In this document: one piece after another, positions 3,827-31,386 of the stretch
Layout: each line of letters starts with the position of its first letter
How positions within the stretch are numbered: the stretch's first letter is position 1
Source: a virus
Reading direction: 5' to 3' (one strand)
DNA: 31,386 nt
IMG/VR virus record: IMGVR_UViG_3300034061_001956
Location: 1 to 31,386 of that record
Notes under the pieces: generated by a model
Seen by the model: the letters and a program-made list of their open reading frames with translations, nothing else
Databases searched by the model: none
Told to the model about the DNA's origin: nothing
Position numbers and translations under genes: made by a program

Positions 3827-5830
3827 TTATCGCGCGTATTTCAATACTCCTAGTATCTGATTAACTGGTGCAAACGCTCCTGTAAGTTTATATGTATTAC
3901 CTCGATAAGTAAATACTACTCCCTCTGATGGAACGATTGCATCAAATCCTCCTAACTTATCAATTCGTTTAAGTTCCAATTCTAATTTAGAAATTGTAGC
4001 TGGATTAGGATTATTTTGTAATTCTTGTGTTAAATCAGCTAACTCTTGTTTGATTTGTTGAACTGTCTTAGATGGATTTGCTGCTAAGAAATTTTCTGCA
4101 TTTTTTAATGCAACTGCACCCAATCGTAAAAATATAGTTTCAAACGGTTCCATGTTTTGTTTGTAATATTGTTTGAATTCTTTTTTATCAAATTCTTGAA
4201 CCCAATTTAAAAATTCTGGATTTGTAATTTGTTTTTTAAGTGAGGTCATGCTTTCTGATTTGTCAAAGAATCCCCATCGATATATTAATACATTTAAAAT
4301 ATTTTCTGGAATATCATATCCTAGTTTAGCGGCTTGAGCTTTAATAACATCACGCCACCATGCTCGATGATATTCAGTAACTTGATCTGTATCTTTTAAA
4401 TTATATCGATTTCGTAATTGATCAATTTCATTGAAGAATGCTGCTTGCTGATCTTCAAAATTAGATATTCGTCCAATTTTAATTTTTTGTGGAGGAATAA
4501 ATGAAAATGTTTTTTGAAGATGCGCATTTGCATCTTGTATGATGCCTTGCAAAGTCCCGCCGCCTGTTAAGTCAGTTTCTACAACATTTCCTTGTTCGTC
4601 ATATTCTACTAAATTGTGAAATTGTAATACAGCAACTTCATATGCAATAACATTACGCGTTGCTGGATAAATAATTTCCATGTTAGCAAACACTCGACCA
4701 TTTTTAAATATTTGATTGAGTTGGTCTTGCGGTATGCGACTAAATGCTTCTGCTAAATCTTCTGCAGCATTTCCAAATGCATCTGATATTGGTCCTCTAC
4801 CCCCAAACTTATCTTGTATTTCTTGTACCGACATCGGATTAATTACAGTACCTTTATTACGAGCAAAACCAATTTGTCCGTTTTTCCATGTTACTTGAAT
4901 GTTTTGTCCATCAGTTTTTTCAGTTACTGCCGCTTCTATATCTAAACGTCCTTCTAATGCTCTGCTAACAATTTCTTTCATATCATTGAAAGTTAATCCA
5001 TGATCATCCCATGGGTGCGCCATATGTCCTGCAGCACCGCCTTCCATTAGCCTTACGCCGTAAACCGTTTTTGGAAATTTATCAAAATCATATACAAATG
5101 ATTGATCATTTTGTTTATCTAAATAGTTACTTAACTTGTTGATTTTATTTTTATGTCGACGAGTTTCAGCGTTATTCATTGTAGCGCCAAATACTTCATC
5201 AATATCTTCTTGCAATTGCATTGCCCACCACTCTTTTGTAAATAATGATTCTTGCAAATTTGTTGCAATTTGCCATATATTTTTAACTATAGCATCATTG
5301 AATTGTGGATATGATGCACGAAATGTTTCATAATCGCGATTAACAATTGATTGTCGTACAACGGTTGCTGATATAGGCATACCATTTGCATATGTTTCTG
5401 GATCTACATCAATACTTAATTCTGTTGCATCAATTCCTGCAGGAATTTTGCGTCCTTTTTTATCACCGATTGTTGCATATTTATCTACATTTGGAACAAA
5501 CGTTTTTGCTCTAACGTAATCATCTCCTTTAGTAGATGCAGCCATGGCATAACGTCCTTTTGCATCGGATGGCAAATCAAACAAATATTCATACGCTGCC
5601 ACAATGGGTGAATTATGTTGCGTAGGTTGAATGATGATGTCAGGATTGTTATTGAGTAAATTAAACATTTCAATGCTTTGTTCTCTAGTAATACCATCTC
5701 TAGAATTTGGTCCAATTAATAATATTACTCGACCTACTTGCGGAGATTCTGCATATCGTTGTGCTAATGCTAAATGAGCTCCAGTTAATGGTTTAAATCC
5801 TCCGGGAAATAAAACTGTTATTTTATTCAT
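3827..5830 (-). CDS. Fusion of NMNAT-like nucleotidyltransferase and polynucleotide-ligase-like domain
   Basis: The product is 667 aa with two domains. Residues 1-185 look like an HxGH-superfamily nucleotidyltransferase. FPGGFKPLTGAH (8-19) matches the N-terminal nucleotide-binding motif, although the usual HxGH reads TGAH. ISATVVR (153-159) matches the ISxTxxR motif of NMN adenylyltransferases and their relatives. From about 260 onward the protein looks like a covalent nucleotidyltransferase of the RNA/DNA ligase type. Motif I is EKTDGQN (K305 as the likely AMP-accepting lysine), followed by an FARNKG segment (about 322-327), a MEIIYP segment with an acidic residue (about 384-389), motif IV SEGVVF (635-640) and a motif V-like YKLTG (K648). 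The gap of about 250 residues before motif IV is unusually long. Joining an NAD-type enzyme to a ligase suggests nucleic-acid end repair or NAD-linked chemistry. Substrates cannot be told from the sequence. Confidence 0.82.
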   Translation of the reverse strand: MNKITVLFPGGFKPLTGAHLALAQRYAESPQVGRVILLIGPNSRDGITREQSIEMFNLLNNNPDIIIQPTQHNSPIVAAYEYLFDLPSDAKGRYAMAASTKGDDYVRAKTFVPNVDKYATIGDKKGRKIPAGIDATELSIDVDPETYANGMPISATVVRQSIVNRDYETFRASYPQFNDAIVKNIWQIATNLQESLFTKEWWAMQLQEDIDEVFGATMNNAETRRHKNKINKLSNYLDKQNDQSFVYDFDKFPKTVYGVRLMEGGAAGHMAHPWDDHGLTFNDMKEIVSRALEGRLDIEAAVTEKTDGQNIQVTWKNGQIGFARNKGTVINPMSVQEIQDKFGGRGPISDAFGNAAEDLAEAFSRIPQDQLNQIFKNGRVFANMEIIYPATRNVIAYEVAVLQFHNLVEYDEQGNVVETDLTGGGTLQGIIQDANAHLQKTFSFIPPQKIKIGRISNFEDQQAAFFNEIDQLRNRYNLKDTDQVTEYHRAWWRDVIKAQAAKLGYDIPENILNVLIYRWGFFDKSESMTSLKKQITNPEFLNWVQEFDKKEFKQYYKQNMEPFETIFLRLGAVALKNAENFLAANPSKTVQQIKQELADLTQELQNNPNPATISKLELELKRIDKLGGFDAIVPSEGVVFTYRGNTYKLTGAFAPVNQILGVLKYAR

Positions 5831-5859: not shown

Positions 5860-8643
5860 TTAATTATCTAACTGTTTCCAAGCTCCATTCAAATAACAAT
5901 ATGCATGCTGATTAACTCCAGATCCAGATACTATTATTTGACCTGCTGCTGGTGAAGTTGGATCAGAAAGTTGCGGTCCTACTATCAATCCAATTGGAAA
6001 TTTTGGTGTAATGGTATCATAACTTGATACTGTTTGTATTTTCCAATCTGTAACACTTTGTGCAAAAAAGATTCGATTACCACTAGTAGCCTTAAAAACT
6101 TGTGGGTAACTTACGCCTAATGAGTCTGGAACAAGTTGACTAATAAATGCTGGGGATATCCAATCGTCGGTATCTACCGATATTTTGCTGTCAGGTGCAT
6201 TTAATGGTGATTGTGCTGCATTTGGTCCGCGTTTGAAATATATAGCTGATGTTGCTACTTCTATTACTACAAATGATGCATAATCTTGATATTTAGGATA
6301 TGATGCTGTATGAATATTTATTGCGCCAATTGGATATTGCAATGCAGCTTCGATACGAATAAACATACCGGGCCCGGTGCTAACATTTGCTGGATCATAA
6401 CTTCCAGTTAAATTTAATGCATAATATGTTAAGCCGCCTTCGGTGTACTCAGATAGATTGTTTAGTGTAGCAGTTTGAATACGAATAGACCGAAACTGAT
6501 AAAAATCTGCTAAATTAACACCTCGAAATTCGCCATCTGACGCTGTTATGTTTCCCTGTGCATCTAAATGAAAATTAGATGCAGAAATTTCAATATTTCC
6601 ATTAGCACCACTAATAAATGTTGTTGCAGGATTTCCGAAAAAGAATTTATTTGTTCGAACATCTATTTCGGAATCTGTAGTTGAATATCTAAAATAACTT
6701 GAAGTATTTGCATAAAGTTCTAATCCAACGCCGCTATATGCAGCGCCGCCTTTTGTTCCGGCGCTACTTGGTAATGCTGATCCAGACCACAGTAAAAATC
6801 CCGGAAAGCCGGCAGCGAATCCTTCATATCCTAATGACCTAACAAATCCAGAATTAGGATATCCGCTAATTGCAACGCCACTATTTAATGAATCTGCAAC
6901 ATATAAAGATCCAGTAAGCATTGAAAAATTACCATCAATATATCGATTACCGCCTTCCCAATCTTTGTTATAAACATATGATATTTGTTTGCTTCGTTCT
7001 CCAGCTACATTGTAATATTCTGCTTTAAAAGAAATTTGATTGTCTATTTTATGTGTAGTTGTAATTGGAGTTTTGATTCTAGTATAATTTGGAGAATATC
7101 CTGCATCATTATCCGTAGTAACTCGTATATCAGCAACTTGCCATTCGCCTGATTCTACTATTAATAACAACGTACCATTACCGGTATATTCAGATTCAAA
7201 ATTTAATATAATATCATCAAAACGTTGATTATCACCAACTGCACGTAATTCTCCAACACGTTTTCCAAATTTTACAGGAAATTCTTGATTAAAATAATCA
7301 GTTGGGTTTGCATAAAATGCACTTCCAGATAAATATACTGATAGAACCGGATCTACTGAACCATTTCTTGTTGCTAAGGCATCAATTGTTATTTTATATG
7401 ATGAATTTTCAATAAAATATCCAGAACTAGTAGTTTTTACAAGCAATACCGAATTTTCTGCATCTAAGTTTAATGAACTAGAAATTTTCATTGCATTGTT
7501 TAATGATGCCGTCGTCCATGTTAATGTTGGAGCCGTAGCAGAAACAAATCCATTATATGCAGATGCCGTCCAATATGTATTAATTGTGCTTTGTGTAACA
7601 AATGTTCCAAGCGCTTGATCTGGATATAATGATGCGGTATTTGTAACAAATATTTCCGTTTCTTCTAGTTCTACATCATTAACTAAGTCCCAAGAACCAA
7701 TTGTACCATTATTGTTAGTAAATACTTTGATTCTTGAAACATCGCCAGCTGCTGGATCTAATCCTTTAACTTGTATATATGCAAATGATTGTGAATTTTC
7801 TGTTGGCGTATATGTAGGTGTAGCTTCATATGACAATGAAAATGCAGAATATCCAAATACATTATATGTATGTGATGAAATACTTTGGCTGCTATAAACT
7901 GTATAATCTGTGTCTAACAATGCCGTAGTTGGAGATAGAATCTTTTTAATTGTAGATACGTAAGGTGTTGTAGCTACCACGTAATTAGGAGTAGGAGTAG
8001 GATTTGACGGGGTTGCAACTGTTATAGTACCAGTAGACATATCTGAAGTAAATGTGCCTCCGGTTATTTCTATTGCAGGTTGATTGTTATATAAATAATA
8101 TCGTACTTGTCCGGTAGTGTAAATTGGAAATTGTCCATTAGCATACGTTCGATCTAATTGAACTCCTATTATTTCTTCAACAATTAATTCAGGTTCAGTT
8201 TCAAAAATAATTTCCGAAACGTTTGATACATTTGGATTAACAGAAACTGATCTTGTCCAACGTATATTAGGTTTATTTTGCCATTCTGCAGGTACGAATG
8301 TATTATCAATTGTAACTGCTTCTGAAAGCAATGTTATGGTACAATCGCCCGGAGATGTATCTTCATAAATATAAATTGCAATTACGCGACTTTTATCTTC
8401 ATCAATATAATCTACAACTTCATGATAAATTGGATCGCCGTTGTAATCTAATATTTCAATTCCTAATACTCCGCCTACTTTTAAATTTTGAGGATTTCCT
8501 CGCAATTTAAATAAATTCTTTCCTGCAGTTAATCTATTAGGAAATTCAGATATTTGAAAATAATCAGGAGATGTTAGTGACGTATCTTCAAAATAAACTG
8601 GAGTAAATTGTAGACCTTTATATACAGCTTCTTTGCGTTTCAT
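5860..8643 (-). CDS. Large virion protein, tail-fibre or adhesin-like
   Basis: No named family is certain; 927 aa. The composition is typical of fibres: rich in Ser, Thr, Gly, Tyr and Asn, poor in Cys, and predicted to be mostly beta. Residues about 20-200 resemble repeated beta-sandwich modules. The middle contains a possible carbohydrate-binding-like module (about 360-530). From about 560 on, segments such as SGANGNIEISASNF and GNITASDGEF resemble the distal region of phage tail-tip or fibre proteins. The C-terminus (PAAGQIIVSGSG, then YCYLNGAWKQLDN) looks like a fibre tip module. The gene is separated from the other tail genes by the DNA-metabolism block, so it may have moved as a host-range module. 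Receptor binding is inferred. The ATG at 8643 lacks a clear Shine-Dalgarno and is preceded by an ATATTTATA element. Confidence 0.8.
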   Translation of the reverse strand: MKRKEAVYKGLQFTPVYFEDTSLTSPDYFQISEFPNRLTAGKNLFKLRGNPQNLKVGGVLGIEILDYNGDPIYHEVVDYIDEDKSRVIAIYIYEDTSPGDCTITLLSEAVTIDNTFVPAEWQNKPNIRWTRSVSVNPNVSNVSEIIFETEPELIVEEIIGVQLDRTYANGQFPIYTTGQVRYYLYNNQPAIEITGGTFTSDMSTGTITVATPSNPTPTPNYVVATTPYVSTIKKILSPTTALLDTDYTVYSSQSISSHTYNVFGYSAFSLSYEATPTYTPTENSQSFAYIQVKGLDPAAGDVSRIKVFTNNNGTIGSWDLVNDVELEETEIFVTNTASLYPDQALGTFVTQSTINTYWTASAYNGFVSATAPTLTWTTASLNNAMKISSSLNLDAENSVLLVKTTSSGYFIENSSYKITIDALATRNGSVDPVLSVYLSGSAFYANPTDYFNQEFPVKFGKRVGELRAVGDNQRFDDIILNFESEYTGNGTLLLIVESGEWQVADIRVTTDNDAGYSPNYTRIKTPITTTHKIDNQISFKAEYYNVAGERSKQISYVYNKDWEGGNRYIDGNFSMLTGSLYVADSLNSGVAISGYPNSGFVRSLGYEGFAAGFPGFLLWSGSALPSSAGTKGGAAYSGVGLELYANTSSYFRYSTTDSEIDVRTNKFFFGNPATTFISGANGNIEISASNFHLDAQGNITASDGEFRGVNLADFYQFRSIRIQTATLNNLSEYTEGGLTYYALNLTGSYDPANVSTGPGMFIRIEAALQYPIGAINIHTASYPKYQDYASFVVIEVATSAIYFKRGPNAAQSPLNAPDSKISVDTDDWISPAFISQLVPDSLGVSYPQVFKATSGNRIFFAQSVTDWKIQTVSSYDTITPKFPIGLIVGPQLSDPTSPAAGQIIVSGSGVNQHAYCYLNGAWKQLDN

Positions 8644-8659
8644 GAATTTGATACTTTAT

Positions 8660-8668
8660 TATAAATAT
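8660..8668 (-). promoter_or_regulatory. ATATTTATA element, copy 3
   Basis: The coding strand reads GATATTTATA, then ATAAA, 16 bases before the ATG of the 927-aa fibre-like gene. It touches the TGA stop of the Mre11-Rad50 fusion gene. Confidence 0.55.
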
Positions 8669-11600
8669 CAAACATGATTAATATTGCTGAATCCGTTTGT
8701 TTTATTTACTTCAATTAAATTATCTACCATATCTCGCATTGAATCTACGTGTGAGATAATGATTGAAAAATCAAATTTGGTTCTAAAATAATCAAATAAG
8801 TTTACAACCGATGAAATATGTTCTGCATCTAATGAACCCCAACCTTCGTCGATTGCAATGAAATTAGGACGAGGCAATGCTGAAACATTGATAAGTGCTA
8901 TGCGAATTGCTAATGATGAAATAAACCGTTCCATACCGGACGTTAATTCTAATGGCCAATAGTTATCTTCATCATATATGATATATCCATTAATATTTTT
9001 GCCATCAGTATTTAATACCATGTTAAAATCAACAACCTGATTAAGTACATTGTTTATTTCAGATTCAATTTTAGGAACAGCTTTTGAAATTAATTCATAC
9101 GGAATGCCATCTCGTTTAACCGATTCCAAATAATATCCATATGCCTTGTATTCAGTTTCTAATTGTCGATAACGATCCAATTGTTCGATTGCAGCACCTT
9201 TATTTGTTTTTGCAACTTCGATTGCACCAAAGAGTGATTTGATTTGTTCTTGTATATTTTTTATTTGTTCTGAACATGTTGCAATTTGTTGTTTGCATTT
9301 ATTGATTTGCGTATCAACATGTTGATTATGTGTAATTGCCGTTTCATTTTTGCGAAATGATTCTTGTCGTTCTACGGTAGTTTCTAATTCAGATTCTCGA
9401 GTTTGTAAATCACTCTCTAATATTTGCAATTGCAATTCATTGCGTTCTAACGTAATTTTTTTAGTTGCAATAGTATTTTTAAGTTTATTATACTGAGTTT
9501 CTAATTCAAATACTGGTTTTAATGATTCTAATTCCGTATTAAGATCTTCGATGCGTTGTTGTAAATCATTTAATATTGTTCGATCCGCTTCAATTGTATT
9601 TTGTGCCTCGATTGCATTTTGAATGAAAACGTTAGATGTACAGTATTTGCAGTTTGGATCATATTCGTGAGATTCAAGATGTTTAATTTTTTCTTGTTTT
9701 CCATTTACGATTTCCTTTTGTTGTCGATATTTTTGTAAAATTGTGTTAACTGAATGTTCTATTTTTGCGTATTGTGTTAGTTTGGATGTAATGTCATTAA
9801 CATCAAATTGAGTTATTTGTTCTTCGTGAGTTTCAATTTCTGCAGTTAGTGTTTCTAGGTCTTGTTCTGCCGTTTCGATGTCTTGTTGAATTGATTCAAT
9901 TGTAGCAATTAAATCTTGTTCTTGACGTTGCAATTCATCGATGTTTGGTCCATCGTATGTAGTTGGAAGTTTTGTTTCAATCAATGAAACAATTTGTTCT
10001 TGTAAATCATTTCTCGTGTCTTGTTGGGCATCTTCTTGTTGTTCTAAAGAAATAATATTGTCTTGGTTTTCTGAAATAATTGCATCAGCTTGAATGATAA
10101 TTTCAGCAAAATCTGTTTTCTTATAATCTTTTAAACGGCCCGATGTTTCTTTGATTTCATCTGCTGCAAGCTGATAAAGTTGTTCAAACACCGTAATATC
10201 TAAAAATTGTGATAATAAATCTTTGCGTTCTTTTTGTGACTTTTCAATAAAATTGTTGTTGTCAGCTTGAAGTGAAAATGCAGTTAAAATAAAATCATCA
10301 TAGGTGCCTAAATAGCGACGAATGTTTTTGTTTGTTTCACTACGTTCTTCTCCGTTTAAATTTTCTGAATCAGTATAAAATTCTACATCAACTTTAACGT
10401 GCGATTCTTTCTTTTTATTTTGAGTACCTCTACGTTCAATAGTATACATAACACCGTTCATTTCAAAACGAAATACACCACGGAACCATGTTTTCTTATT
10501 ATTTAAAACTTCATTTGCTTTGCTTGTTTTGCTACATTTATCAAATATGGTATAAGTAATTGCATCAAGCAAACTAGATTTTCCAGATGTATTTGCAGCA
10601 AATAAACCACATACATCAGACAAGTTTTCAAAATTTAAAACATTGCCTTCGCCATATGAAAACATGTTGTCAAATTCAAATGATACGGGATGCCATGTTG
10701 TATGACGAATTGATTCTACTGCAGGTAATTTTGAATTAATTGTGCGATTGATATGTCGAATAGCATCGACTTCTTCTGCAGTTGCTTGTGGAAAATTTGA
10801 ATCAATATAATCTGTTAATAGGGTGTTTTGATATTCAACGTCACGTACATTCCCAATAGCTAAGCTAGATGATGTTGAAGTTGCAGCACTACCAATTGTT
10901 CGTTGAATTGTAATGTCTTCTACATCATATTTTTTACGAATTGCAGCAATAAGTTTTTTCATATCCGCTGCACTCGTTTCATTAAATTTAATACGAACCC
11001 GAGGACGTTGTGGCATTCGAGCTGGTGCATTAATGATTGCTGCTCCTTGAGTTTCTATAGTTACATAACCATATTCATTGTGTATTTCATGAAACTCTGC
11101 ACTGCGTTGTTCTACGTCCCAAACCAATATTCCATGAATCAATGCTTCGCCATGATTTTGTTGAATCAATGAACCCGGATATGCAACTGTCTTTGCATCA
11201 TCTAAGAATTGTGCTGGCTTATGTATATCGCCTAACAACGTAATATCATGTCCTTCGAACAAATCAACACCTACATGTTCATTTGATATTTGATATCCAA
11301 TATCAGTTTTAGCAGTATTAACGGCACCATGGTGTAATGCAATTTTATATGGAGCTACGAAATCTTTAGCTCGAATATAATCTGCAGGTGTTTTATCAAC
11401 TGCCATATGATTCCATGTTATGCTGCCAAATTCAAACAAACCATTATCTTTGATAAAATGAATGTTTGGATTCTTAATAACATCTAATACTGGAGATATT
11501 GCATCAATCCTGTGCATGTTATTTAGATTCATATCATGATTACCTAAAATAACAATTGTAGGAATTGTAAATCCATTAAAGAAATCTACAAGCATTTGAA

Positions 11601-12924: not shown

Positions 12925-13407
12925 TTATTTAAAAAAACGTTTAACATCAACTGCTTCTTCGCCTCGTTTTATGCATTCCGCCATCCATTCTGCAGGAATT
13001 TCTTTTTTTGCAACGTGCACGATTCCTAACTTACGAGCATATGCTTCATACGTAGTTGGAGAGGTTTTTGACAATTTTTGATTCGGATTTTGAAACACCA
13101 TTCTTATATCAATTCCAGGATTTGACTGCAATACGTGTTTCATTTTAGTACGATCTGCAGTAGTCCAACGTCCTTTTGTTTCAATATACATGGTTGCTCC
13201 GTTGCGTTTTGTAAACACAAAATCAGGTGTATATTTTGCTTTGCGCTCTGGCACAACGTAGTTTAATGTTTCTGCTTCGTAACGAAGTTCATACTCGGTT
13301 TGTTTGATTTGTTCGGATACGGTTAATTCTAATCCTGACTTATAACCATGTTTAAGTGCATTAGCTCGCTTCGAGTTTCCAGCACTGTGAAAGTGATTTC
13401 GTTTCAT
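12925..13407 (-). CDS. Endonuclease I, T7 gp3-like Holliday junction resolvase
   Basis: The product is 160 aa, about the length of T7 endonuclease I (149 aa). It would resolve branched DNA such as Holliday junctions and recombination or packaging intermediates. The catalytic set is complete: E27 in SGLE, D62 in YTPDF, and E76 and K78 in IETKG, compared with E20, D55, E65 and K67 in T7. Further shared segments are IRMVFQNPNQKL and SPTTYEAYARKLGI, and IPAEW near the end. T4 itself uses the unrelated endonuclease VII, so this is a replacement by a podovirus-type enzyme. The gene starts four bases after the stop of the M15-like peptidase gene and is followed by the 178-bp gap, so it appears to be the last gene of the cassette that starts at 17673. 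Confidence 0.94.
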   Translation of the reverse strand: MKRNHFHSAGNSKRANALKHGYKSGLELTVSEQIKQTEYELRYEAETLNYVVPERKAKYTPDFVFTKRNGATMYIETKGRWTTADRTKMKHVLQSNPGIDIRMVFQNPNQKLSKTSPTTYEAYARKLGIVHVAKKEIPAEWMAECIKRGEEAVDVKRFFK

Positions 13408-13410
13408 AAC

Positions 13411-14187
13411 TTACATGTAATCCCAATTAAGAGTTTTTGTTTGTTTTGTATATGTATTAGTAGAAGAATTCCATTTATCAAATGGAAATGATATTGATAC
13501 AGAGTCGCCATCTAATATTGCTTTATGTATCGCAGTACATGCATCTTGGAATACAGTGATATTTTTTGAATCTTCAAAACTACATTTATTTGAAATTTTA
13601 TCAATTACTGGCGTTTTTGCTAGTTGATTAAACAATGATTCAAAATATGCTGCAGCCCCTTCTTCATCATCTCCAATGCCTTTAGAAAATGGATTCCATG
13701 ATTTAAATTTAGAAAAATATTCTTCGGGTTTTTTTTCAGTTACATACTGTATATCATTGATTGCAGATTCTATAGAATCATTGTGTTGTTTTTTTGTTGA
13801 ATTTGATAATGATGATTTAATTTTAAAATCTACGTGCACGTGATCCGTATGGGGACTAACGCCGGAATATGTATTCCATCCTTGTGATAAGTTCCATATT
13901 TTACGATTATAAATTATGTTTTGTGCTTGAATTATATCGGCATTTTTAACTAACCAATTGGCTAATTTTTGCATAACCGGATCGCCTACACCTTTTTTTC
14001 CGTGCCAATCGATAGCATTGCCTGTTGAGTGCTGTGATGGTGTATTAGTGCCAGCAATATTTCTTTTACTCCATATTCCAATAGATTTCCATTTATCTGC
14101 AGAAAATTCTGGTTTAGATAAAACCAATTGTTTGCAAAACTTTGTTGCAGAAGTTTGTTCCGTAAGTAAATGTTTCAATGTTATCAT
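13411..14187 (-). CDS. M15-like metallopeptidase with capsid-targeting-like leader
   Basis: The product is 258 aa. The leader MITLKHLLTE (1-10) matches in length and pattern the T4 capsid-targeting sequence MKTYQEFIAE, which is cut after Glu by the prohead protease, whose rule is roughly (L/I)xE. Next comes a compact peptidase domain with SQHSTGNAIDW (51-61; H53, D60) and PHTDHVHVD (112-120; H116, H118), the zinc ligands expected for M15/LAS-type peptidoglycan peptidases. Residues about 130-258 are unassigned. The family cleaves peptide bonds in peptidoglycan. If the leader is real, the protein would be packed in the head and injected. An alternative is an endolysin whose N-terminus resembles the leader by chance. 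The start overlaps the stop of the MORN-like gene, and no Shine-Dalgarno is seen, so coupled translation is likely. Confidence 0.85.
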   Translation of the reverse strand: MITLKHLLTEQTSATKFCKQLVLSKPEFSADKWKSIGIWSKRNIAGTNTPSQHSTGNAIDWHGKKGVGDPVMQKLANWLVKNADIIQAQNIIYNRKIWNLSQGWNTYSGVSPHTDHVHVDFKIKSSLSNSTKKQHNDSIESAINDIQYVTEKKPEEYFSKFKSWNPFSKGIGDDEEGAAAYFESLFNQLAKTPVIDKISNKCSFEDSKNITVFQDACTAIHKAILDGDSVSISFPFDKWNSSTNTYTKQTKTLNWDYM

Positions 14188-15530
14188 TTAGTAGTGTCTA
14201 CATATTTTCCGTTTGTAAAAGTACCGGTTATAGTTGATTTAGTATCATCAGTATATAAAGTACCATTATTAGGATTTCCATCCAAATTAAACGTACCTTC
14301 ATAATATGATATTACTTTATTACTAGCATCATATGCGAATATTTTAGAGTTATTATTTTTTGTATCTATATCGTCAGCTGTTTTAAAACCATGATATACT
14401 CGATATGATACATCTGGCATCGAAGATACTACTTCTCGATTTGTAAATTGATATTCGCCGTCTGTAAATACACCATTTTCGGTAAATGTACCGATTCGTA
14501 TTTGATCGGGCGTTTTCCACGTACCATTACTAAACCACCAACGCTTACTAGTAGCATCATATGAAAATGTGCCATCTAATGTTGTATTACGTTGTTTAAA
14601 TATGCCTTTAATCGGTATTCCTTTTGTATTATTCCATGTGCCAGTAAAAGTAGAAGTACCAACTTTTTTATCAGTGACTTCTTGTATATCATCTTGTACA
14701 TTATCGATTTCTTCTTGATCTGCCGGGTCATCTGTTATATCATCCGTAGCAACCACACCTGGCGAACTAGCTACTCCAGGAAACTCATTTTTTGCAAAGT
14801 CATACCAAGCTTGTGGAGGATATGGAATTTCTTGTTTATTTTTTAGATACCATTTCCGATCAACATTCTCGATTCTATCTTCTATTAAATTTAGCATCAA
14901 TTTCATACTCTTAACACTTGCATTCCCTACCGCAATAAATGAGCTATCTGTAACAGCTGTATCACTTTGAAGTCCTTGGTGGTGAGCCATATATTTAAGC
15001 AGTGCGTTTTTCGTATTCATTACAAGTACAGTAACACGATATCGTTTACCTAGTTGTTTGACATTTCCATATAGATAGTAATATGCAGATATAAATGAAA
15101 TCTGATCTGGTTCATCTAAATTGATAGCATATTCAAGATTTGGTGCCGATGCATATTTACCATCTGGTCCAACATCTTCTTTTTTACTTTCCGGGTCGCC
15201 TCCTGATGCATTACATGCTGCTGCTATAGCCGTGGATAATCTCGATTCTGGTAATCGTTTCGTAACAACTGCAAATACATGATCCGCACCACATTTTTTT
15301 GCTAATTCGAAATCTTCTTTCTTAGTTCTTACTATTTTAGCTACACCTTCTGTTAATAGTGTTTTCTTGATAATGTGTTCTAAAATTGCACCGGGTTTAG
15401 GTTTAGCTGTTATTTTGTTTTGTTGTGACGGTGGCACTAATGCATATTTAATAATATTTTCTAACAATGCATCTTGTTGGCGTCGTTTCATTATCAATTG
15501 TCGTATAGCATCTTCTATTCGATTACTCAT
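14184..15530 (-). CDS. Protein with helical N-terminal propeptide-like region and MORN-like C-terminal repeats
   Basis: The product is 448 aa from ATG at 15530, chosen because AAAAAAGGAT precedes it at good spacing; a longer frame would need TTG at 15554. Residues 1-61 hold two related helices (ALLENIIKYAL at 21-31 and AILEHIIKKTLLTE at 48-61) that end in LxE or IxE, the consensus cut sites of T4-type prohead protease. LLTE followed by Gly at 61/62 is identical to the end of the neighbouring peptidase leader. Residues about 62-245 form an unassigned globular domain. After an acidic linker (about 260-290), the C-terminal part (about 294-445) repeats a beta-hairpin pattern (TGTW, DGTFSYD, NGTW, IGTFTENGVFTDGEY, EGTFNLDG, TGTFTNGKYV) like MORN repeats, which often mediate membrane or protein contacts. 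The function is unknown. It lies between two genes with packaging-type leaders. Confidence 0.82.
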   Translation of the reverse strand: MSNRIEDAIRQLIMKRRQQDALLENIIKYALVPPSQQNKITAKPKPGAILEHIIKKTLLTEGVAKIVRTKKEDFELAKKCGADHVFAVVTKRLPESRLSTAIAAACNASGGDPESKKEDVGPDGKYASAPNLEYAINLDEPDQISFISAYYYLYGNVKQLGKRYRVTVLVMNTKNALLKYMAHHQGLQSDTAVTDSSFIAVGNASVKSMKLMLNLIEDRIENVDRKWYLKNKQEIPYPPQAWYDFAKNEFPGVASSPGVVATDDITDDPADQEEIDNVQDDIQEVTDKKVGTSTFTGTWNNTKGIPIKGIFKQRNTTLDGTFSYDATSKRWWFSNGTWKTPDQIRIGTFTENGVFTDGEYQFTNREVVSSMPDVSYRVYHGFKTADDIDTKNNNSKIFAYDASNKVISYYEGTFNLDGNPNNGTLYTDDTKSTITGTFTNGKYVDTTK

Positions 15531-15547
15531 ATCATCCTTTTTTATAA

Positions 15548-16090
15548 TTACCAATCAATCATTACTAGTTTGTTGTTCCAAACCATAATGTTATCAGTTT
15601 TAAAATCCAAATCCAAATCTAAATCAGAAATTCCTGTTTTTTGTACATCTCGTTGCAATGCCCGTAAAAAATTAACGAAACGAACATCTGTATCGCGAGC
15701 ACCATCGGCATCTAAATAATCAAAAATAGAAACTTCGCCGCCTTCGCTACGAGCATAATTTTTATAGTTTTCAATAAATTGATCAATATTGGCACGTTGG
15801 TTTCCTGATAATTCTGATGCTTTTGACATAACGTACATGTTATTTCCATCAACATAATATACAGGAATAAACGTTGTAAATTCTGAATAACGATTAACAA
15901 TTACTTCTGCAACTTGATATTCTTCTTGTTCCGTTGTTATTTTAAATAATTTATCTTCACCCTCAATTTCATATACGCGACCATTATCGCCTTGCCCAAA
16001 CAATTTGAATTGTTTATTGCGTATTTTTTCTAATATGCGTTTTAAATCGCTATCAGTCATTTCTCGGAGAAGTTGTTTTAATCGTATCAT
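15548..16090 (-). CDS. Small kinase-like protein with capsid-targeting-like leader
   Basis: The product is 180 aa. Three ATG codons lie in a row at 16096-16088. The third (16090) is six bases after AAAGG, the best spacing, and gives MIRLKQLLRE as residues 1-10, almost the same as the leader of the peptidase at 14187. The rest reads as a reduced protein-kinase/phosphotransferase fold: a glycine-loop-like FGQGDNGRVY (31-40), LFKIT with K50 as the probable ATP lysine, YVMSK near a hinge (86-90), a catalytic-loop-like LDFKTDNIMV (D162, N167), and a terminal MIDW in which D179 would be the metal-binding Asp. The protein stops right there, so the activation segment and the rest of the C-lobe are absent. 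It may phosphorylate a small substrate or be a pseudokinase. The start region overlaps the end of the LamG protein gene. Confidence 0.82.
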   Translation of the reverse strand: MIRLKQLLREMTDSDLKRILEKIRNKQFKLFGQGDNGRVYEIEGEDKLFKITTEQEEYQVAEVIVNRYSEFTTFIPVYYVDGNNMYVMSKASELSGNQRANIDQFIENYKNYARSEGGEVSIFDYLDADGARDTDVRFVNFLRALQRDVQKTGISDLDLDLDFKTDNIMVWNNKLVMIDW

Positions 16091-16092
16091 CA

Positions 16093-17673
16093 TCATCCTT
16101 TAGGCAAAACATTAGCATCTAAATCTAATCGTATTAAAAAATTCATATCAACATCACTGCGTTTACGTATAGGCTGTGCCAATTTCCCAATTGCAAGTAA
16201 TTGACCGGCATCATTATACAATCCGATCGTTGTGATATACGGAGAAAATGTGCTACTAGTTGCAAATGTACGATATGTAGAATCATCATCTGCTGTCAAT
16301 GTTATGTTAGTAGACATATTAAAATCTCCGGCATCTAATTTTGTTACAACATTCATTTCATGAATCGTAACGGTACTACGATATGATGAAGTAAATGGCG
16401 TTTTTAATAAATCATTGACCCGGTAATCTGCAGATGAAAAAACAATGATACCATGTTTTCCAAAAACATTTCCTACGTATTGAGTTTGCAATGCAGTGCC
16501 ACCCTCATTACGGTTGGATAACGCACTTATCTGCGACCCGGACAACGCGGTATTAAAGATTCTTATTTCATCTAGATAACCTTGTAGATTTAAACTATTG
16601 GGGCTAAAACCACCAATCTTTAATGAATCTCTGTTATCAATCCTAGAAGATGCTGTTAATGGAGAATTGTAAACTCCCAATAACGTGCTAGATGCAGATG
16701 AATGCAACGTGCCATTAACATACATATGCAATGAACTTCCCGTTTTTTGACAAACAACGTGTGTCCAACTCGATGTAACATATGTAGATGATGTAATCAT
16801 TGTTTTATATGAAGTACTTCCTTGTGCCGTAAATACAAGTTGATTGCTACCACTTAATTCAATTCGAAACGGAAATGTAGGGGTTGTACTTTGTGATGCT
16901 TTTGTTGCAATTATTTGATTTGCAGAAGTAGTATTTCCGCCGCTAATAAAAAATGATACAGCATAATCATGATCTCGATCATATAATCCGTTTAATTCAG
17001 ATTCAATATATCCCGAACCCGAAAAATATGCAGCCATTCCCAATGCACGTTGTTGTCCGGTATTTGTAACAATACCTGGTACATATGTAACTCCTGAGCT
17101 AACATATGTTGTTCTAGATGCATCAAAATATTCATTGAAACCTTCATACCATTTTACATTAGGAATAATTAAGCCGGTATTGTATGCCGAATCAATAATA
17201 TTTCCATAACGATCACTATAAAATGATCCAGACACCGATGATGTAAATGTAAATGATGCAGGTTTTATTCCTTCGCCTATTCGTACTTGTGGTATCGATA
17301 AAATAGAAGCAGTTTGAAACAATGCTTTTTTTGTGCGATTTAAATTGGTAGGACCATATGTTTTTGCAGGATCAGCTTTGTGTTTATAATACAAATGATT
17401 TACAGAAAAATACGTAACACTTTGCAAACTATCATCTACATTCTTTGCATCATTGTATGTTAATTCACTACCCAATGCTGGTAATACATTGACATCGGTG
17501 TATATTCCTCGTAAAGGCAATGCACTACTAGTAGCGCTACCAGAATATATAGTCCAAGATTTATAAGCAGGAAACGGATTGATTGCTACATCGGACATAT
17601 CAATTTTTTTAAAAACTGATGGATATATTCCTTTGTATGCGTCTTCTTGTTCTTGAATTTTTGATTGTGCCAT
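16093..17673 (-). CDS. Virion protein with LamG/concanavalin-like domain
   Basis: The product is 526 aa. The N-terminal part (about 1-190) is of unknown fold. Residues about 195-380 form a LamG-like lectin sandwich: AAYFSGSGYIES, SWTHVVCQKTGSSLHMYVNG and LDEIRIFNTALSGSQISAL match the usual strands. The last 75 or so residues (YITTIGLYNDAGQLLAIGKL, then RLDL) are clearly related to the C-terminus of the neighbouring 434-aa protein. Such lectin-like domains on tail or baseplate proteins bind surface sugars or stabilise assemblies; I infer a tail or baseplate accessory role. The gene follows a hairpin that overlaps an ATATTTATA element. No strong Shine-Dalgarno is seen before the ATG at 17673. 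Confidence 0.82.
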   Translation of the reverse strand: MAQSKIQEQEDAYKGIYPSVFKKIDMSDVAINPFPAYKSWTIYSGSATSSALPLRGIYTDVNVLPALGSELTYNDAKNVDDSLQSVTYFSVNHLYYKHKADPAKTYGPTNLNRTKKALFQTASILSIPQVRIGEGIKPASFTFTSSVSGSFYSDRYGNIIDSAYNTGLIIPNVKWYEGFNEYFDASRTTYVSSGVTYVPGIVTNTGQQRALGMAAYFSGSGYIESELNGLYDRDHDYAVSFFISGGNTTSANQIIATKASQSTTPTFPFRIELSGSNQLVFTAQGSTSYKTMITSSTYVTSSWTHVVCQKTGSSLHMYVNGTLHSSASSTLLGVYNSPLTASSRIDNRDSLKIGGFSPNSLNLQGYLDEIRIFNTALSGSQISALSNRNEGGTALQTQYVGNVFGKHGIIVFSSADYRVNDLLKTPFTSSYRSTVTIHEMNVVTKLDAGDFNMSTNITLTADDDSTYRTFATSSTFSPYITTIGLYNDAGQLLAIGKLAQPIRKRSDVDMNFLIRLDLDANVLPKG

Positions 17674-17678
17674 ATAGT

Positions 17679-17717
17679 AAAAACCCTGCTACATTTAATA
17701 TAAATATAACAGGGCTT
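17679..17717 (-). terminator. Hairpin terminator with a promoter-like element in its loop
   Basis: On the coding strand AAGCCCTG (17717-17710) pairs with CAGGGTTT (17688-17681), an 8-bp stem including one G-T pair. It is followed by a run of five T in all and encloses a 21-base loop. The hairpin lies after the 434-aa gene stop and before the 526-aa gene start. The loop contains the ATATTTATA element (17699-17707). Confidence 0.65.
17699..17707 (-). promoter_or_regulatory. ATATTTATA element, copy 4
   Basis: The element lies 25 bases before the ATG of the LamG protein gene, inside the loop of the hairpin at 17679-17717. If transcription starts just downstream, the new transcript lacks the first arm of the hairpin and would not be terminated by it. 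Confidence 0.55.
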
Positions 17718-19038: not shown

Positions 19039-19689
19039 TTATAATGTTGCAGTAGTTGCTTTTTTAACCGTTAAATTGATAGTAACACTTCCACCCGTTT
19101 CATTTGCAATTACTGTAATTGTTGCAGTTTTATCTTCAATTAATTGCGTTTTAGCAACAACCCGGAATTCAAATCCAGCAACAGCAACACTTTGAGCATC
19201 TTGATCGTCTCCGACAAATCTAGGTGTAGTTGGAAGTACTGAATTTTGTAATGCTCTAGTTACTTGTATATCTGCAACTGTTGAATCAGACAATATTGCC
19301 GTATATCCTAATGTTGCATTGCCACCGCGGAAATTACTTGTATTTGGTGCAATAACAGTACTATCACCAGGCGCAGACAATGTAATTGAAGTATTACCTA
19401 CAGTTACAACTGGTATGTTGGTTGTTTGTTTTGGCAAAGTAACTAATTTATATTTCAATGCTTGTGTTTCATCCGGAATTGCTTCAGTGATTGGCATATT
19501 TTCAATAATTGTTCCGTAATATGCAGTTCCTAGCGGATGATCCGGATTCCATAATGAATAATCAATTTCATCATCACCTACTGCAAATTGCGTAATATTA
19601 AAAGCATTTCCGCCTTTTGCTAAAAGTTCACGTCCTTTTAACGTTAAAATTGCGTCTATTGTAACGCTCGAATTATCTAAATATCCCAT
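19039..19689 (-). CDS. Virion structural protein, small, beta-rich
   Basis: The product is 216 aa. Residues about 8-60 (VTIDAILTLKGRELLA, then ITQFAVGDDEIDYSLW) resemble the N-terminal segment shared by several small structural proteins of large phages. Residues about 90-216 look like an immunoglobulin-like beta domain, with alternating Val/Thr strands and ITVIANETGGSVTINLTV at the end. A tail or baseplate accessory protein is likely; the exact role is unknown. It is the first gene of its transcription group, 48 bases after the gp7-like gene, with an ATATTTATA element and AAGG before the ATG at 19689. The 434-aa gene follows after one base. Confidence 0.8.
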   Translation of the reverse strand: MGYLDNSSVTIDAILTLKGRELLAKGGNAFNITQFAVGDDEIDYSLWNPDHPLGTAYYGTIIENMPITEAIPDETQALKYKLVTLPKQTTNIPVVTVGNTSITLSAPGDSTVIAPNTSNFRGGNATLGYTAILSDSTVADIQVTRALQNSVLPTTPRFVGDDQDAQSVAVAGFEFRVVAKTQLIEDKTATITVIANETGGSVTINLTVKKATTATL

Positions 19690-25379: not shown

Positions 25380-28300
25380 TTATCCTAATTTTTTCACTGT
25401 TAATCTAGGTGGTGTACTATTACTAGTAATTGTTGTAATATTTGCATTTGATGGATTAACTAATACTCTATAATATCCTGGTGTAGAAATATATTCAACT
25501 AATGTACCAGTTACGGTTTGATCATTAGTACCTTCAACCGATTTGTAATCATTGAATAAAGAAACCAATGTAAATACACCTCCGGTACTAGTACCAGTTG
25601 CTAATTTAATTAAAATATCAACGTCAGCACCCAATCCGCTTAAATATATTTGCGTAATAAATTCATAATATCCAGGTTGTTTTATATAAACAGCTGCAGT
25701 TGTTAAACCGGCATCAACTAATTCAAAACTAGCTACTGCAGTATTATAATCATTCGTATTAAATCTAATATTATTATCTACACTATTCGTTAACGTTACG
25801 CCATTGATACTATTTGAAAATCTTGCAACAGGCATTCCAAAATACGATGACGTCATTGCATGCGATGCAGTTACTGCAAAAGATGATGTTCCAAACAATG
25901 AACCCGTTAATGACCCCGTAATAAAACTAGCCGTTACATGTGTGAACGAAGCGGTTGCAATTGAAATTAAACTTCCTGATATTGAATTCAAATTAGCAAA
26001 ACTACTAGTAATTGTTGAAAACTGCGCTAATGATCCAGAAATGCTACCGGTAATGCCCAAACTAGCGCTAACATATCCGACTAAACTACCGGTAATATTT
26101 CCTTTTAAAGATCCTGTTATCGATACAAAGTCTGCTTCTGTACCAACAATATTACCCGTAACATTACCCGTTAAATTACCTACAACGGCTGTAACAGAAA
26201 TATTTGGAACTGCCAATGTATTTGTATTTGGATTATATTCAAACCCAGTGTCTGCTTTAAGACTACTAGGTCCGGTATTATTTGTTGTAAATATTACAAA
26301 ACGATTTGCATTTGTTGAATCTAATTCTATTTGAGCATTTCCGGCATTAGTTGCATACGATGCTGTACCATTCAATGATCCAGACAACGATCCCGTAAAT
26401 AAACCATGAATTTGTCCCGTATAATTTGGAGTGGATAATGAGCCACTAAATGTTTTTAATTGTGCAATACTTGAACTAAATGAAGCAGAATCTAAAGGAT
26501 AATTATTTATATTCAATGCTAAACTAGCGCTAAATGATGCTGAATCTAATAAGTATGAATTATAATTATTTACTATGCTTGAACTAAATGAAGCCGAATC
26601 TAATAAGTATTTATTATAGTTATTTACTATGCTTGAGCTAAACGATGCCGAATTGAGCAAATACGTATTATAATTATTTACTATGCTTGAACTAAATGAA
26701 GCCGAATCTAATAAATATGTAGTTTGATTTGCGGCAATACTAGAACTAAATGATGCAGAATTGAGCAAATATGTAGTTTGATTTGCAGCAATGCTTGAAC
26801 TAAACGAAGCCGAATCTAATAAGTATGAATTATAATTGTTTACTATGCTTGAACTAAATGACGCAGAATTTAATAAATAGGTATTGTAATTGTTTACTAT
26901 GCTTGAACTAAATGATGCAGAATCTAATAAATATGATGTTTGATTTGCAGCAATACTTGCACTAAATGATGCTGAATTTAATAAGTATGTAGTTTGGTTT
27001 CCAGCAATACTTGCGCTGAATGATGCTGAATTTAATAAATACGTAGTTTGATTTGCGGCAATGCTTGAGCTAAATGATGCTGAATTTAATAAGTATGTAG
27101 TTTGGTTTCCGGCAATACTTGCACTAAATGACGCAGAATCTAAAAGATAACTACTATTAATTGACGCAGTTGATGAATACAAACTAGCAGTAAATGCACT
27201 AAAAGATGCGGTAGGTAAAAATTCAGGTGTTACTGATATTGTTAAAGTTTTAGTCCCTGGATTAGTTGTTAATGAAATATCATTTCCTGCAGTGATAGTC
27301 ATTGTATCGGTAGCATTCGCAGCTACAATACTACTTTGTCCAGTTACTGCAAATGTTGTAAATGAACTTCCCGAATAAACTCCCGACCCTGATACATTCC
27401 CATATAATGCAGATGATGCGGTATAATATAATTGTCCGGTCCCGGTATCAATTACAACTACATTGTTTAAATTTTGTTGAGTTGTTGCAGGAACAAATAA
27501 ACTACTAGTAACTGTTAAATTACCATTAACGGTTTGGCTACCCAATACATTTACAGAGCCGGTAATAGCTACATTTCCTAAAAATTTATGCGGCAAATTT
27601 GAATTTGCTACATACGTTATGCCTTGTTGCTGAATTGGGTCTTCTTCAATATAGCCTGTATATATTATAGGAGATATTATATCATTAGCTTCTAGATTAT
27701 TAAATACGTTAACGCCTGTAAATGTATTAGAACCAGTTGTTGCAACTGAGCCGCTAAATACTTCTAATGCTGTTGATCTATTAGCAAATGATGCCGAATC
27801 ATTTTGATATGATGCAGTGAATGATGTAAATTGAATTTCGCTAGCATATGATGTATCTAAACTAGAACTAAAAGATTCTAATGCTGAAATTCTAGTAGAA
27901 TTAGATGCAGAAACATTTAAGAAACTACTACTTAATATCGCAACACTAGAACTATTAATTATTATGTTTGCAGCAAATGATGCTGAATTTGTTACGAGAT
28001 TAGCAATTCCAGAACTAAATGATGCCGATGTTGATAAATAACTAGATGATAATGTTGCAATACTAGAACTATTAATAATGATTCTAGATGCAAATGATGC
28101 TGAATCAATTAAATAATTGTTTTGATTCGTAATAATGCTTGAACTAAATGATGCAGAATCTAATAAATATGATGTTTGATTTGCAGCAATACTTGCACTA
28201 TTTGTAGTAATTCTAGATGCAAATGATGCTGAATTATTTAAAAAGCTTCCACTTAATAAAGCAATACTAGAACTATTTGCAGTAATTCTCGTATCGAATG

Positions 28301-28619
28301 ATGCTGAATCTACATAATACGTAAATGGACTACCAGTAATTTCATAATTAGTTCCATTTGTATTTATAATGATATTTGGGCCTGCAACTAAACTTACATA
28401 TGAAGCAGTAATTGCACGATTTGACCAACTTGAAGTCCCTTGTAGTGATGCTGTTACGCCTTGGGTAACAATCATTGACCCGGTAATTTTCATTGACCCG
28501 GTTAATTGTACTGATTCAGTGACTGCACCAGTAAATATATCATATAAATCTGATACGAAACTTGCTGATATCAAACCTCCAGCAACGATTTGCGCACGGT
28601 TCGTTGACAATTTGCCCAT
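25380..28619 (-). CDS. Large repeat-rich tail fibre with C1q/TNF-like tip
   Basis: The product is 1079 aa and contains almost no Cys. Residues about 1-75 hold GS-rich motifs (TGSMKITGSMIVTQG). Residues about 78-230 are degenerate repeats of SASF/NSSSIA units. Residues about 235-475 include a non-repeat region (GSNTFTGVNVF). Residues about 475-720 are a tandem array with an 18-residue period (YLLDSASFSSSI, then AANQT or VNNYN). Residues about 730-930 carry GSLxG repeats (ITGSLKGNITGSL, GSLSGSLNGTASYATN). Residues about 935-1079 are a beta-rich module (PGYYEFITQIYLSG, then PGYYRVLV) like a C1q/TNF or fibre-tip jelly roll. This is a long trimeric fibre probably used for host recognition. The gene follows gp6, where T4 instead has baseplate genes. 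A promoter-like element and AAAGGA precede the ATG. Confidence 0.88.
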   Translation of the reverse strand: MGKLSTNRAQIVAGGLISASFVSDLYDIFTGAVTESVQLTGSMKITGSMIVTQGVTASLQGTSSWSNRAITASYVSLVAGPNIIINTNGTNYEITGSPFTYYVDSASFDTRITANSSSIALLSGSFLNNSASFASRITTNSASIAANQTSYLLDSASFSSSIITNQNNYLIDSASFASRIIINSSSIATLSSSYLSTSASFSSGIANLVTNSASFAANIIINSSSVAILSSSFLNVSASNSTRISALESFSSSLDTSYASEIQFTSFTASYQNDSASFANRSTALEVFSGSVATTGSNTFTGVNVFNNLEANDIISPIIYTGYIEEDPIQQQGITYVANSNLPHKFLGNVAITGSVNVLGSQTVNGNLTVTSSLFVPATTQQNLNNVVVIDTGTGQLYYTASSALYGNVSGSGVYSGSSFTTFAVTGQSSIVAANATDTMTITAGNDISLTTNPGTKTLTISVTPEFLPTASFSAFTASLYSSTASINSSYLLDSASFSASIAGNQTTYLLNSASFSSSIAANQTTYLLNSASFSASIAGNQTTYLLNSASFSASIAANQTSYLLDSASFSSSIVNNYNTYLLNSASFSSSIVNNYNSYLLDSASFSSSIAANQTTYLLNSASFSSSIAANQTTYLLDSASFSSSIVNNYNTYLLNSASFSSSIVNNYNKYLLDSASFSSSIVNNYNSYLLDSASFSASLALNINNYPLDSASFSSSIAQLKTFSGSLSTPNYTGQIHGLFTGSLSGSLNGTASYATNAGNAQIELDSTNANRFVIFTTNNTGPSSLKADTGFEYNPNTNTLAVPNISVTAVVGNLTGNVTGNIVGTEADFVSITGSLKGNITGSLVGYVSASLGITGSISGSLAQFSTITSSFANLNSISGSLISIATASFTHVTASFITGSLTGSLFGTSSFAVTASHAMTSSYFGMPVARFSNSINGVTLTNSVDNNIRFNTNDYNTAVASFELVDAGLTTAAVYIKQPGYYEFITQIYLSGLGADVDILIKLATGTSTGGVFTLVSLFNDYKSVEGTNDQTVTGTLVEYISTPGYYRVLVNPSNANITTITSNSTPPRLTVKKLG
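26470..27160 (-). repeat. 54-bp tandem repeat array, about 13 units
   Basis: In-frame units of exactly 54 bp (for example the ctaaa core at 26476 and again at 26530) encode the 18-residue fibre repeat. Units alternate between two or three variants (VNNYN against AANQT or AGNQT), so the array looks homogenised by unequal recombination. Confidence 0.85.
27930..28390 (-). repeat. Degenerate repeat array in the fibre shaft
   Basis: Older-looking copies of the same SASF/SSSI units as in the main array, with variable spacing, encode residues about 78-230 of the fibre. They retain the Ser-Ala-Ser-Phe core but have diverged more than the 54-bp units. Confidence 0.65.
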
Positions 28620-30541: not shown

Positions 30542-30991
30542 TTAAGGGGTAACTGTCAATGTTCCAGTTTGATTAACACCCAATGTTAATGTTTTTTCTT
30601 CAGCACTATAAACTGGTCTAAATGTTATTGTAACGATAACATCGTGAATTAAATTAGGATCATCATCTGTTGTTTGTACATCGATGTTCATTAATTCAAT
30701 ATCAGGTAACCATTGATTGATTGGGTCTGTTATATATTCAACAATATCTTGTTTTATTTCGGATGTATTTGGTTGAAATATAATTTTTAATAAATCTGTG
30801 CCAAATGTTGGCAACATTACGCGTTCGCCCTTTCGAGTCAACAACAATGTTTTTAATTTAGCAAATTCTTGTTCAATACTAGTATATGTTGAATCAAATA
30901 CAACGTTGCCATTTGCGCCTAATGAAATGCCTAAAGTAGCTACGTTAGTTGTTCGAATAACATCAGCAGCAGTGACAACTTGATATCCCAT
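30542..30991 (-). CDS. 25: Baseplate wedge protein gp25
   Basis: The product is 149 aa, against 132 in T4 gp25. This small lysozyme-fold protein without enzymatic activity links the sheath to the baseplate wedge. The family core LTRKGERVMLPTFGTDL (51-67) is complete; the arginine-glycine-glutamate and phenylalanine-glycine parts are the usual signature. The C-terminal strands (DVIVTITFRPV, then LTLGVNQTGTLTVTP) are slightly longer than in T4. The ATG at 30991 overlaps the TAA of the upstream gene (TAATG) and has AAAGG six bases before it. gp6 follows after eight bases. Confidence 0.95.
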   Translation of the reverse strand: MGYQVVTAADVIRTTNVATLGISLGANGNVVFDSTYTSIEQEFAKLKTLLLTRKGERVMLPTFGTDLLKIIFQPNTSEIKQDIVEYITDPINQWLPDIELMNIDVQTTDDDPNLIHDVIVTITFRPVYSAEEKTLTLGVNQTGTLTVTP

Positions 30992-31386
30992 TACATACCT
31001 TTCTTCTTGTTAATTGCTTTCATTAATGCTGAATAATCTCGAGTCATTGCTTGTTGTACTTCTTGTGGAACTTCAAATGTTTTACCTGTCTCAGGATCTT
31101 CCATTATCTTTGGTGCTGTAGGTGCAACACCCATTGCTTCGCGCATATTTTGTCGCATTGTTCCGAAATTAACTGCATTTTGCGAATTCATTTTAATTTC
31201 TTCCATACCTTCATTCATTAAATCTCGAAAACTATTCATTGCTAATGGTTCTTGTTCATGTAAACTATCCGTTTCATTTAACACAGAAGCCCATTTATTA
31301 TCATTGAATTGTACTTTTGATTTTTTAGAAGATTCTGTAACAGTTTTTCTTTGCACGGGAACGTGTGCTATGCTTTTAAGATCTGC
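30991..31386 (-). CDS. Partial unknown protein, 5' end beyond the window
   Basis: The frame is open to the right edge, so the start is probably outside. The GTG at 31356 is a possible internal start but has no Shine-Dalgarno. About 131 residues are visible, hydrophilic and helical, with Met/Asn/Glu-rich stretches (NSFRDLMNEGMEEIKMNSQNAVNFGTM, split here as a description of about 41-67 counted from the GTG). The end is basic (INKKKGM). No family is recognised. It is translationally coupled to gp25 (TAATG overlap), so it is probably expressed with the baseplate genes. It could be a small head, neck or baseplate accessory protein. Confidence 0.7.
   Translation of the reverse strand, partial: ADLKSIAHVPVQRKTVTESSKKSKVQFNDNKWASVLNETDSLHEQEPLAMNSFRDLMNEGMEEIKMNSQNAVNFGTMRQNMREAMGVAPTAPKIMEDPETGKTFEVPQEVQQAMTRDYSALMKAINKKKGM

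Follow-up and report, generated by a model that had tools for sequence, protein, structure and literature searches.

We analysed a stretch of viral DNA, hereafter the window (31,386 nt; positions 1 to 31,386 of IMG/VR record IMGVR_UViG_3300034061_001956). This 31.4 kb fragment comes from the record of a T4-like myovirus and has a GC content of 32.6%; all of its genes, as well as the leaders and the promoter-like element described below, lie on the minus strand. Two of the encoded proteins, a minimal protein-kinase-fold protein (15548–16096) and a zinc peptidase (13411–14187), begin with the same decapeptide pattern, MIxLKxLLxE. Judging from sequence comparisons, this pattern is likely to be a T4-type capsid-targeting propeptide which is cut after its Glu and the cargo of which is ejected with the DNA.

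The kinase leader, MIRLKQLLRE, spans 16061–16090, and its predicted cut follows Glu10, corresponding to Glu12 of the open reading frame (ORF) that opens with MMM-. Since the N-terminus of the ORF reads MMMIRLKQLLRE and continues with Met after the predicted cut, the leader begins at the third Met (16090). The peptidase leader, MITLKHLLTE (14158–14187), is followed by Gln and is likewise predicted to be cut after Glu10. The two leaders differ in synonymous codons at Leu4, Leu7 and Leu8, implying that the amino acids have been conserved, rather than a piece of DNA copied recently. Among 31 aligned kinase sequences, Leu4 and Glu10 never vary and Met1 and Ile2 hardly do, positions 7 and 8 are always Leu, Ile or Met, and positions 6 and 9 are free; single-residue indels adjoin the Glu, with one residue fewer before it in L047 and one extra after it in L048 and L051. 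Seven leader-bearing peptidases have Met, Ile, Leu4, Leu7 and Glu10 fixed and follow the pattern M-I-x-L-[KR]-H-L-[LI]-[TA]-E-Q; a more distant peptidase, L058, has a different start, MIIKSKLTE↓Q (the arrow marks the predicted cut). In the AlphaFold2 models, residues 1–10 have a pLDDT of 38 in the kinase, where they are the sole stretch below 50, and of 59 in the peptidase. The gene between the two (14184–15554; 456 aa from TTG or 448 aa from ATG, which is M9 of the TTG-start ORF) would carry a longer leader, extending from the ATG to LLTE↓G (15348–15530) and including repeated amphipathic ..LLENIIKYAL.. and ILEHIIKKTLLTE segments; the preliminary description of this DNA had placed LLTE before Gly at residue 61, which is accurate when counted from the ATG. 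In this gene and its relatives, the longer leader type consists of segments of the form [IL]-[IL]-E-x-[IL]-I-[RK]-x-x-L-x-E, present once (MSSILENLIRTYLIE↓G) or several times (window, L010), which gives the leader a modular look; in the relatives, the segments end in LLE↓G, LIE↓G, LFE↓D or LHE↓Q. Collectively, the decapeptides are N-terminal leaders of about 10 residues that end in [LIV]-x-E and carry hydrophobic residues at positions 4, 7 and 8, as expected of a capsid-targeting sequence (CTS).

Relatives were located via the window baseplate protein and IMG/VR. By the baseplate-wedge protein, the closest cultured phage is Microcystis phage Mel-JY01, with 53% identity across this protein, followed by Flavobacterium phage immuto (42% identity), and the uncultured G001 (IMGVR_UViG_3300013126_000012, 159.6 kb) is syntenic with the window end to end. 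A strict motif, M[IVK].[LIMF]..[LI][LIM].E, was found at 6 of 200 gene starts versus 1 of 719 internal Met in G001 (p = 6e-4) and at 5 of 128 gene starts versus 0 of 555 internal Met in G002 (p = 2e-4), the expectation from shuffled N-termini being 0.02 and 0.01, respectively. In T4, used as a positive control, the scan recovered the internal protein (IP) leaders (MKTYQEFIAE) as well as MAKINELLRES, which we take to be gp24. The small size of the window precludes strong significance when it is analysed by itself (p = 0.03 for a generic and 0.19 for the strict motif). When other start codons and longer leaders are allowed, G001 has about 15–20 leader genes. Across IMG/VR, the DNA pattern for MIxLKxLLxE, ATGATTMRNTTRAAAVNNYTWYTWNNNGAA, matched at least 120 loci, versus none for the reversed pattern. 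Each of the 82 matches that were read lies at the start of an ORF; the median length is 150 aa, and in 73 cases there is an in-frame stop at most 30 codons upstream. Among the matches listed, 77 of the encoded proteins could be grouped into 49 families that are mutually unrelated beyond the leader. A second, more T4-like pattern, MK-x-FK[QE]F-[ILF]-x-E, has a stop at most 30 codons upstream in 82 of 85 matches listed, and the corresponding proteins form 32 families among those matches, one of them with 44 members. Control contigs, selected by an arbitrary 16-mer and similar in size to the tagged ones, contain neither exact tag pattern (0 of 35). Thus, the shared start of the kinase and the peptidase, pointed out in the preliminary description, can be read in the ORFs and is not due to chance, as the statistics for G001 and G002 and the IMG/VR control indicate, and the search for further proteins with this start, which had been recommended there, was productive.

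The positions conserved in these leaders, 4, 7, 8 and 10, are those mapped in the CTS of T4 IPIII, where residues 4 and 7 serve targeting, residues 8 and 10 serve processing and the first 10 residues suffice (PMC9026906). Like T4 IPI–IPIII, with the CTS MKTYQEFIAE, the tagged proteins combine a 10-residue leader, hydrophobic residues at 4, 7 and 8 and Glu10 with otherwise diverse cargo and, in the relatives, a gp21-family protease; the T-even internal proteins have been described as a diverse defence set that has the CTS alone in common (PMC3012670). Unlike in T4, however, the consensus is MIxLKxLLxE, longer leaders are added, cleavage is putative, and the cargo belongs to many more families, including ADP-ribosyltransferases (ARTs), a kinase, peptidases and lysozymes. 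The nearest known leader sequence is the T4 gp24 propeptide, MAKINELLRE↓S, the ten residues of which are taken off by the prohead protease (PMC9958956), although gp24 is a shell protein and not cargo. Ejection proteins of phiKZ and SPN3US are head cargo cut after the Glu of S/A-x-E by a gp21-related protease (PMC5694885), but their propeptides are mostly long (several exceed 100 aa), whereas those described here have 10 aa and end in [LIV]-x-E.

Consistent with processing in the head, the prohead protease of the gp21 family (Peptidase_S77, hereafter S77) is encoded in every kinase-bearing contig above 40 kb that was tested (G001, G002, G003 and G005) and in both cultured relatives, Mel-JY01 (Pfam E 6e-30) and immuto. 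The check for such a protease, proposed in the preliminary description, therefore turned out positive in these relatives and negative in the window itself, where a search of the 31 kb found none because the fragment ends inside the terminase large subunit gene (2–1522, truncated by the window edge); in G001 the protease gene lies ~3.5 kb past the terminase, that is, by synteny, just off the window. In alignments, the major capsid protein of the relatives keeps [LIV]xE↓[AS] at the T4 gp23 cleavage position (LVKE↓S/A, IVSE↓A and LISE↓A; FLTE↓A in T4), and the protease has a conserved [LI]xE↓S (LTE↓S) near its own N-terminus. Furthermore, in L103 the homologue of the prohead-core gene beside the protease starts with MIKLKELLNE, and others in that gene cluster start with MKKLKEMLHE (a neighbour) and MGEIDILKKIIKEEVKKSLLNE↓G. 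Of 35 tagged contigs, 18 (11/20 plus 7/15) contain S77, versus 6 of 35 controls of similar size (p = 0.0025), and T4-type gp23 is present in all 7 MIxLK-tagged contigs above 90 kb; the two of the latter that lack S77, G010 and G012, end within ~3–5 kb of gp23, where the protease would lie. The capsid-targeting interpretation put forward in the preliminary description is thus supported by the IPIII-like positions 4, 7, 8 and 10, by the protease in relatives and by the occurrence of the tag both in prohead-core genes and in an ART-PolyVal protein. Alternatively, the leader could target another part of the virion than the head, by loading into the tail tube or baseplate as for the cargo of extracellular contractile injection systems. 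Indeed, the tagged genes of the window adjoin tail and baseplate genes, and the tagged proteins include several lysozymes or peptidoglycan hydrolases, as are typically found in tails. Nevertheless, we regard this as unlikely, given that register and residues agree with the T4 head tag and gp24, that the tag is present on prohead-core genes near the protease and that the terminal Glu and [LIV]xE fit the sites of the prohead protease in these phages.

The kinase gene is overlapped at its start by, and shares an operon with, a gene for a LamG-domain protein (16093–17673; PF13385, E 8e-18) that adjoins the tail and baseplate genes, and a promoter-like element, ATATTTAT, is located upstream of this operon (17700–17707). 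The ATATTTATA element is the reverse complement of the T4 late TATAAATA box, is ~20-fold enriched, in one orientation, upstream of G001 and G002 genes, and in relatives precedes the sheath, tube, portal and baseplate genes along with many leader genes. Its presence upstream of the LamG–kinase operon suggests that the operon is expressed late. In G001, leader genes carry ATATTTATA more often than other genes (p = 0.004–0.005). Window genes with ATATTTATA in the upstream region are 16093–17673, 3827–5830, 5860–8643, 19039–19689 and 25380–28619.

The kinase (182 aa) displays a G-loop (GQGDNGRVY, 34), the Lys (FKIT, 51), the catalytic Asp/Asn (DFKTDN; 160–169) and a C-terminal metal Asp (MIDW, 179), placing it in the kinase superfamily. 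Foldseek matches include CK2, Lpg2603, RIO1 and the minimal kinase OspG (top E 9e-4, probability 1.00, TM-score 0.3–0.47), so that the fold proposed earlier for this protein is confirmed. Most of the C-terminal lobe is missing: both the protein and its aligned relatives terminate at the IDW that replaces the metal-binding DFG. IMG/VR contains 45 kinase relatives, and a smaller probable relative, gp093 of immuto, has a leader of its own, MISIYNILKE. A match of the kinase to REC1 (E 9e-4) falls well short of the cut-off for that family and was judged spurious. The peptidase, also recognized in the preliminary description, has a LAS/M15-like fold followed by a C-terminal domain. Its catalytic domain matches the C-terminal domain of VldE, a zinc peptidase of the LAS family (probability 1.00, TM-score to target 0.65–0.73 for the five best Foldseek matches), and the metal motif SxHxxGxAxDW ... 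HTDHVHVDF (SxHxxGxAxD...HxH) is backed by residues invariant in the family alignment; 8 relatives of the peptidase were found, and Pfam gave no significant match. Unlike VldE, the phage peptidase possesses a head-type leader and the extra C-terminal domain. The resemblance to VldE makes peptidoglycan a plausible substrate. By eye, the G-x-F/W repeats at the C-terminus of the middle protein resemble MORN repeats, and the preliminary description called the protein MORN-like, but this label lacks Pfam support, the MORN profile giving no match up to E 5; relatives of the protein have the C-terminal part in common and a variable N-terminus. For all three proteins, PHROGs and Pfam yielded no useful name, and tblastn against cultured phages returned remote peptidase matches only. 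The window and G001 are 92% identical in the terminase, 90% in the primase and 74% in the kinase; at the threshold applied, neither the middle gene nor the peptidase is matched in G001. Of the three genes, only the kinase is conserved and syntenic, the other two occupying a variable slot. A conserved kinase next to a position with changing cargo is a more apt description than a three-gene ‘cassette’; the early-takeover or anti-defence module envisaged before is not supported as a fixed trio, and the peptidase resembles a peptidoglycan peptidase.

Further leader proteins of G001 and G002 comprise LysM-lysozyme, M23-lysozyme and GDSL-lysozyme, and by Pfam the tagged proteins from IMG/VR include ART-PolyVal (L150), NUDIX, AAA_33/zeta toxin, PD-(D/E)XK nuclease and PG_binding/GH19 proteins, with MPTase-PolyVal below threshold. 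Proteins co-injected with DNA are reported to include ones with ART, kinase and metallopeptidase domains (PMC5512222). The tagged ART-PolyVal protein of L150 and the YHGT-like ART motifs seen by eye in other tagged proteins recall T4 Alt and the ARTs of polyvalent proteins, although no ART is encoded in the window, where the tagged enzymes are the kinase and the LAS-type peptidase. In Mel-JY01 (L002), tandem paralogues (60276–60926, 60923–61105 and 62056–62718) start with MIKLKSLLQE or MIKLMSLVTE, followed by ISDRVWH[LV]T; they are ART-like by eye, and the one examined with Pfam gave no match. The likeness of the window peptidase to a peptidoglycan peptidase, together with the hydrolases among the G001 and G002 leader proteins, suggests that part of the cargo helps the DNA across the cell wall rather than countering defence. 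Tagged proteins might also be packaged without being injected and serve head assembly or lysis, for example as stored peptidoglycan enzymes. Such a role could be reconciled with T4 gp24, which has a leader of this kind and remains in the shell, and with the tagged prohead-core genes. It is, however, very unlikely to account for the set, since ART-PolyVal, NUDIX, zeta-toxin-like and nuclease cargo has no obvious assembly role and T4 Alt and IPs bearing such leaders are injected.

Under the capsid-targeting reading, a tagged protein would be made late in infection and enter the prohead core via its amphipathic leader, with the hydrophobic residues at 4, 7 and 8. The S77 protease would then cut after Glu10, at [LIV]-x-E↓x, or, in the middle protein, at the LLTE↓G with which its longer leader closes. 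The leader would depart, and the mature kinase or peptidase would remain with the DNA and be ejected into the next host cell, where the kinase may act on host proteins and the peptidase may loosen peptidoglycan during or after DNA entry. Several observations weigh against this scenario. The residue following the Glu in the kinases is hydrophobic (Met, Ile or Leu), not the small P1' residue typical of T4 gp21 sites, which raises real doubt about cutting, and P1' is highly variable across the tagged set. S77 was not found in 17 of 35 tagged contigs, many of which are fragments, and the S77-positive control contigs carry neither exact tag; the association between S77 and the tags is therefore bound to the clade. 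Moreover, leader genes are scattered rather than gathered in one cassette, the enrichment of ATATTTATA at leader genes in genomes other than G001 is a non-significant trend, several tagged proteins differ from the T4 internal proteins in being lysozymes or peptidases, and a literature search for virion proteomics found none. The least probable alternative, namely, that the N-terminal helix simply belongs to each protein or reflects a translation-friendly AT-rich start, the similarity being a convergence, could draw on the AT-rich genome (MIKLK is made of AT-rich codons) and on the kinase leader, which continues as a helix and is followed by a conserved hydrophobic residue past the Glu, but it is contradicted by the absence of reversed-pattern matches, by Glu fixed at position 10 in 49 unrelated families, by the synonymous codon differences between the window leaders and by AlphaFold2, which leaves kinase residues 1–10 unfolded, and a start-context effect would not explain the invariant Leu4 and Glu10.

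T4 internal proteins with a CTS are of a known kind. Within the open-access papers searched, neither this different consensus nor the modular build of the longer leaders, the wide range of cargo or the scale on which uncultured phages use such tags appears to have been described; no report of the literal tag was found among these papers, which is a weak negative. On balance, we favour the broader view that in a clade of environmental T4-like phages the portable decapeptide acts as a general loading tag, with ~10–20 head-packaged injected effectors of unrelated origin per genome (kinases, ARTs, NUDIX, nucleases and cell-wall enzymes) readable from their N-termini. In T4, a handful of injected proteins are known, and in other phages virion proteomics is usually needed to find more. 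If the tag holds, a ten-residue pattern would provide lists of candidate injected effectors, mostly of unknown function, from many uncultured phage genomes, as well as portable tags for loading chosen proteins into the heads of non-model phages, and it would explain the common start of a phage kinase and a cell-wall peptidase.

The downstream neighbour of the peptidase gene, without a leader, encodes a phage endonuclease I family protein (12925–13407; Pfam PF05367, E 5e-32). The N-terminus encoded at 30991–31386, with an internal MNSFRDLMNE, was not taken into account, as this gene is truncated by the window edge. A large fibre-like protein (25380–28619) contains many LLxSASFSSSIxxNxxx-type repeats, and its G001 counterpart is much shorter (138 aa). 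In the contigs behind L104, L162, L150 and L382, the S77 domain is interrupted by an in-frame insertion within one long frame of 367, 585 or 1109 aa (G009 71415–72467, G013 77004–78647, G015 64436–65488 and G061 79089–80741), suggesting an intein or an inserted domain. On the 14.2 kb contig L263, four unlike genes within 2.5 kb (7000–9422) each start with MKTFKQFI[TSL]E, forming a compact array of putative head cargo. Finally, a second short N-terminal motif, ENM[LR]RFGTKNLSE, follows or replaces the decapeptide in otherwise different proteins (G001 126279–126923, 127511–128371, 128935–129630 and 61342–61617; also L106 and L128) and may represent a second processing leader.

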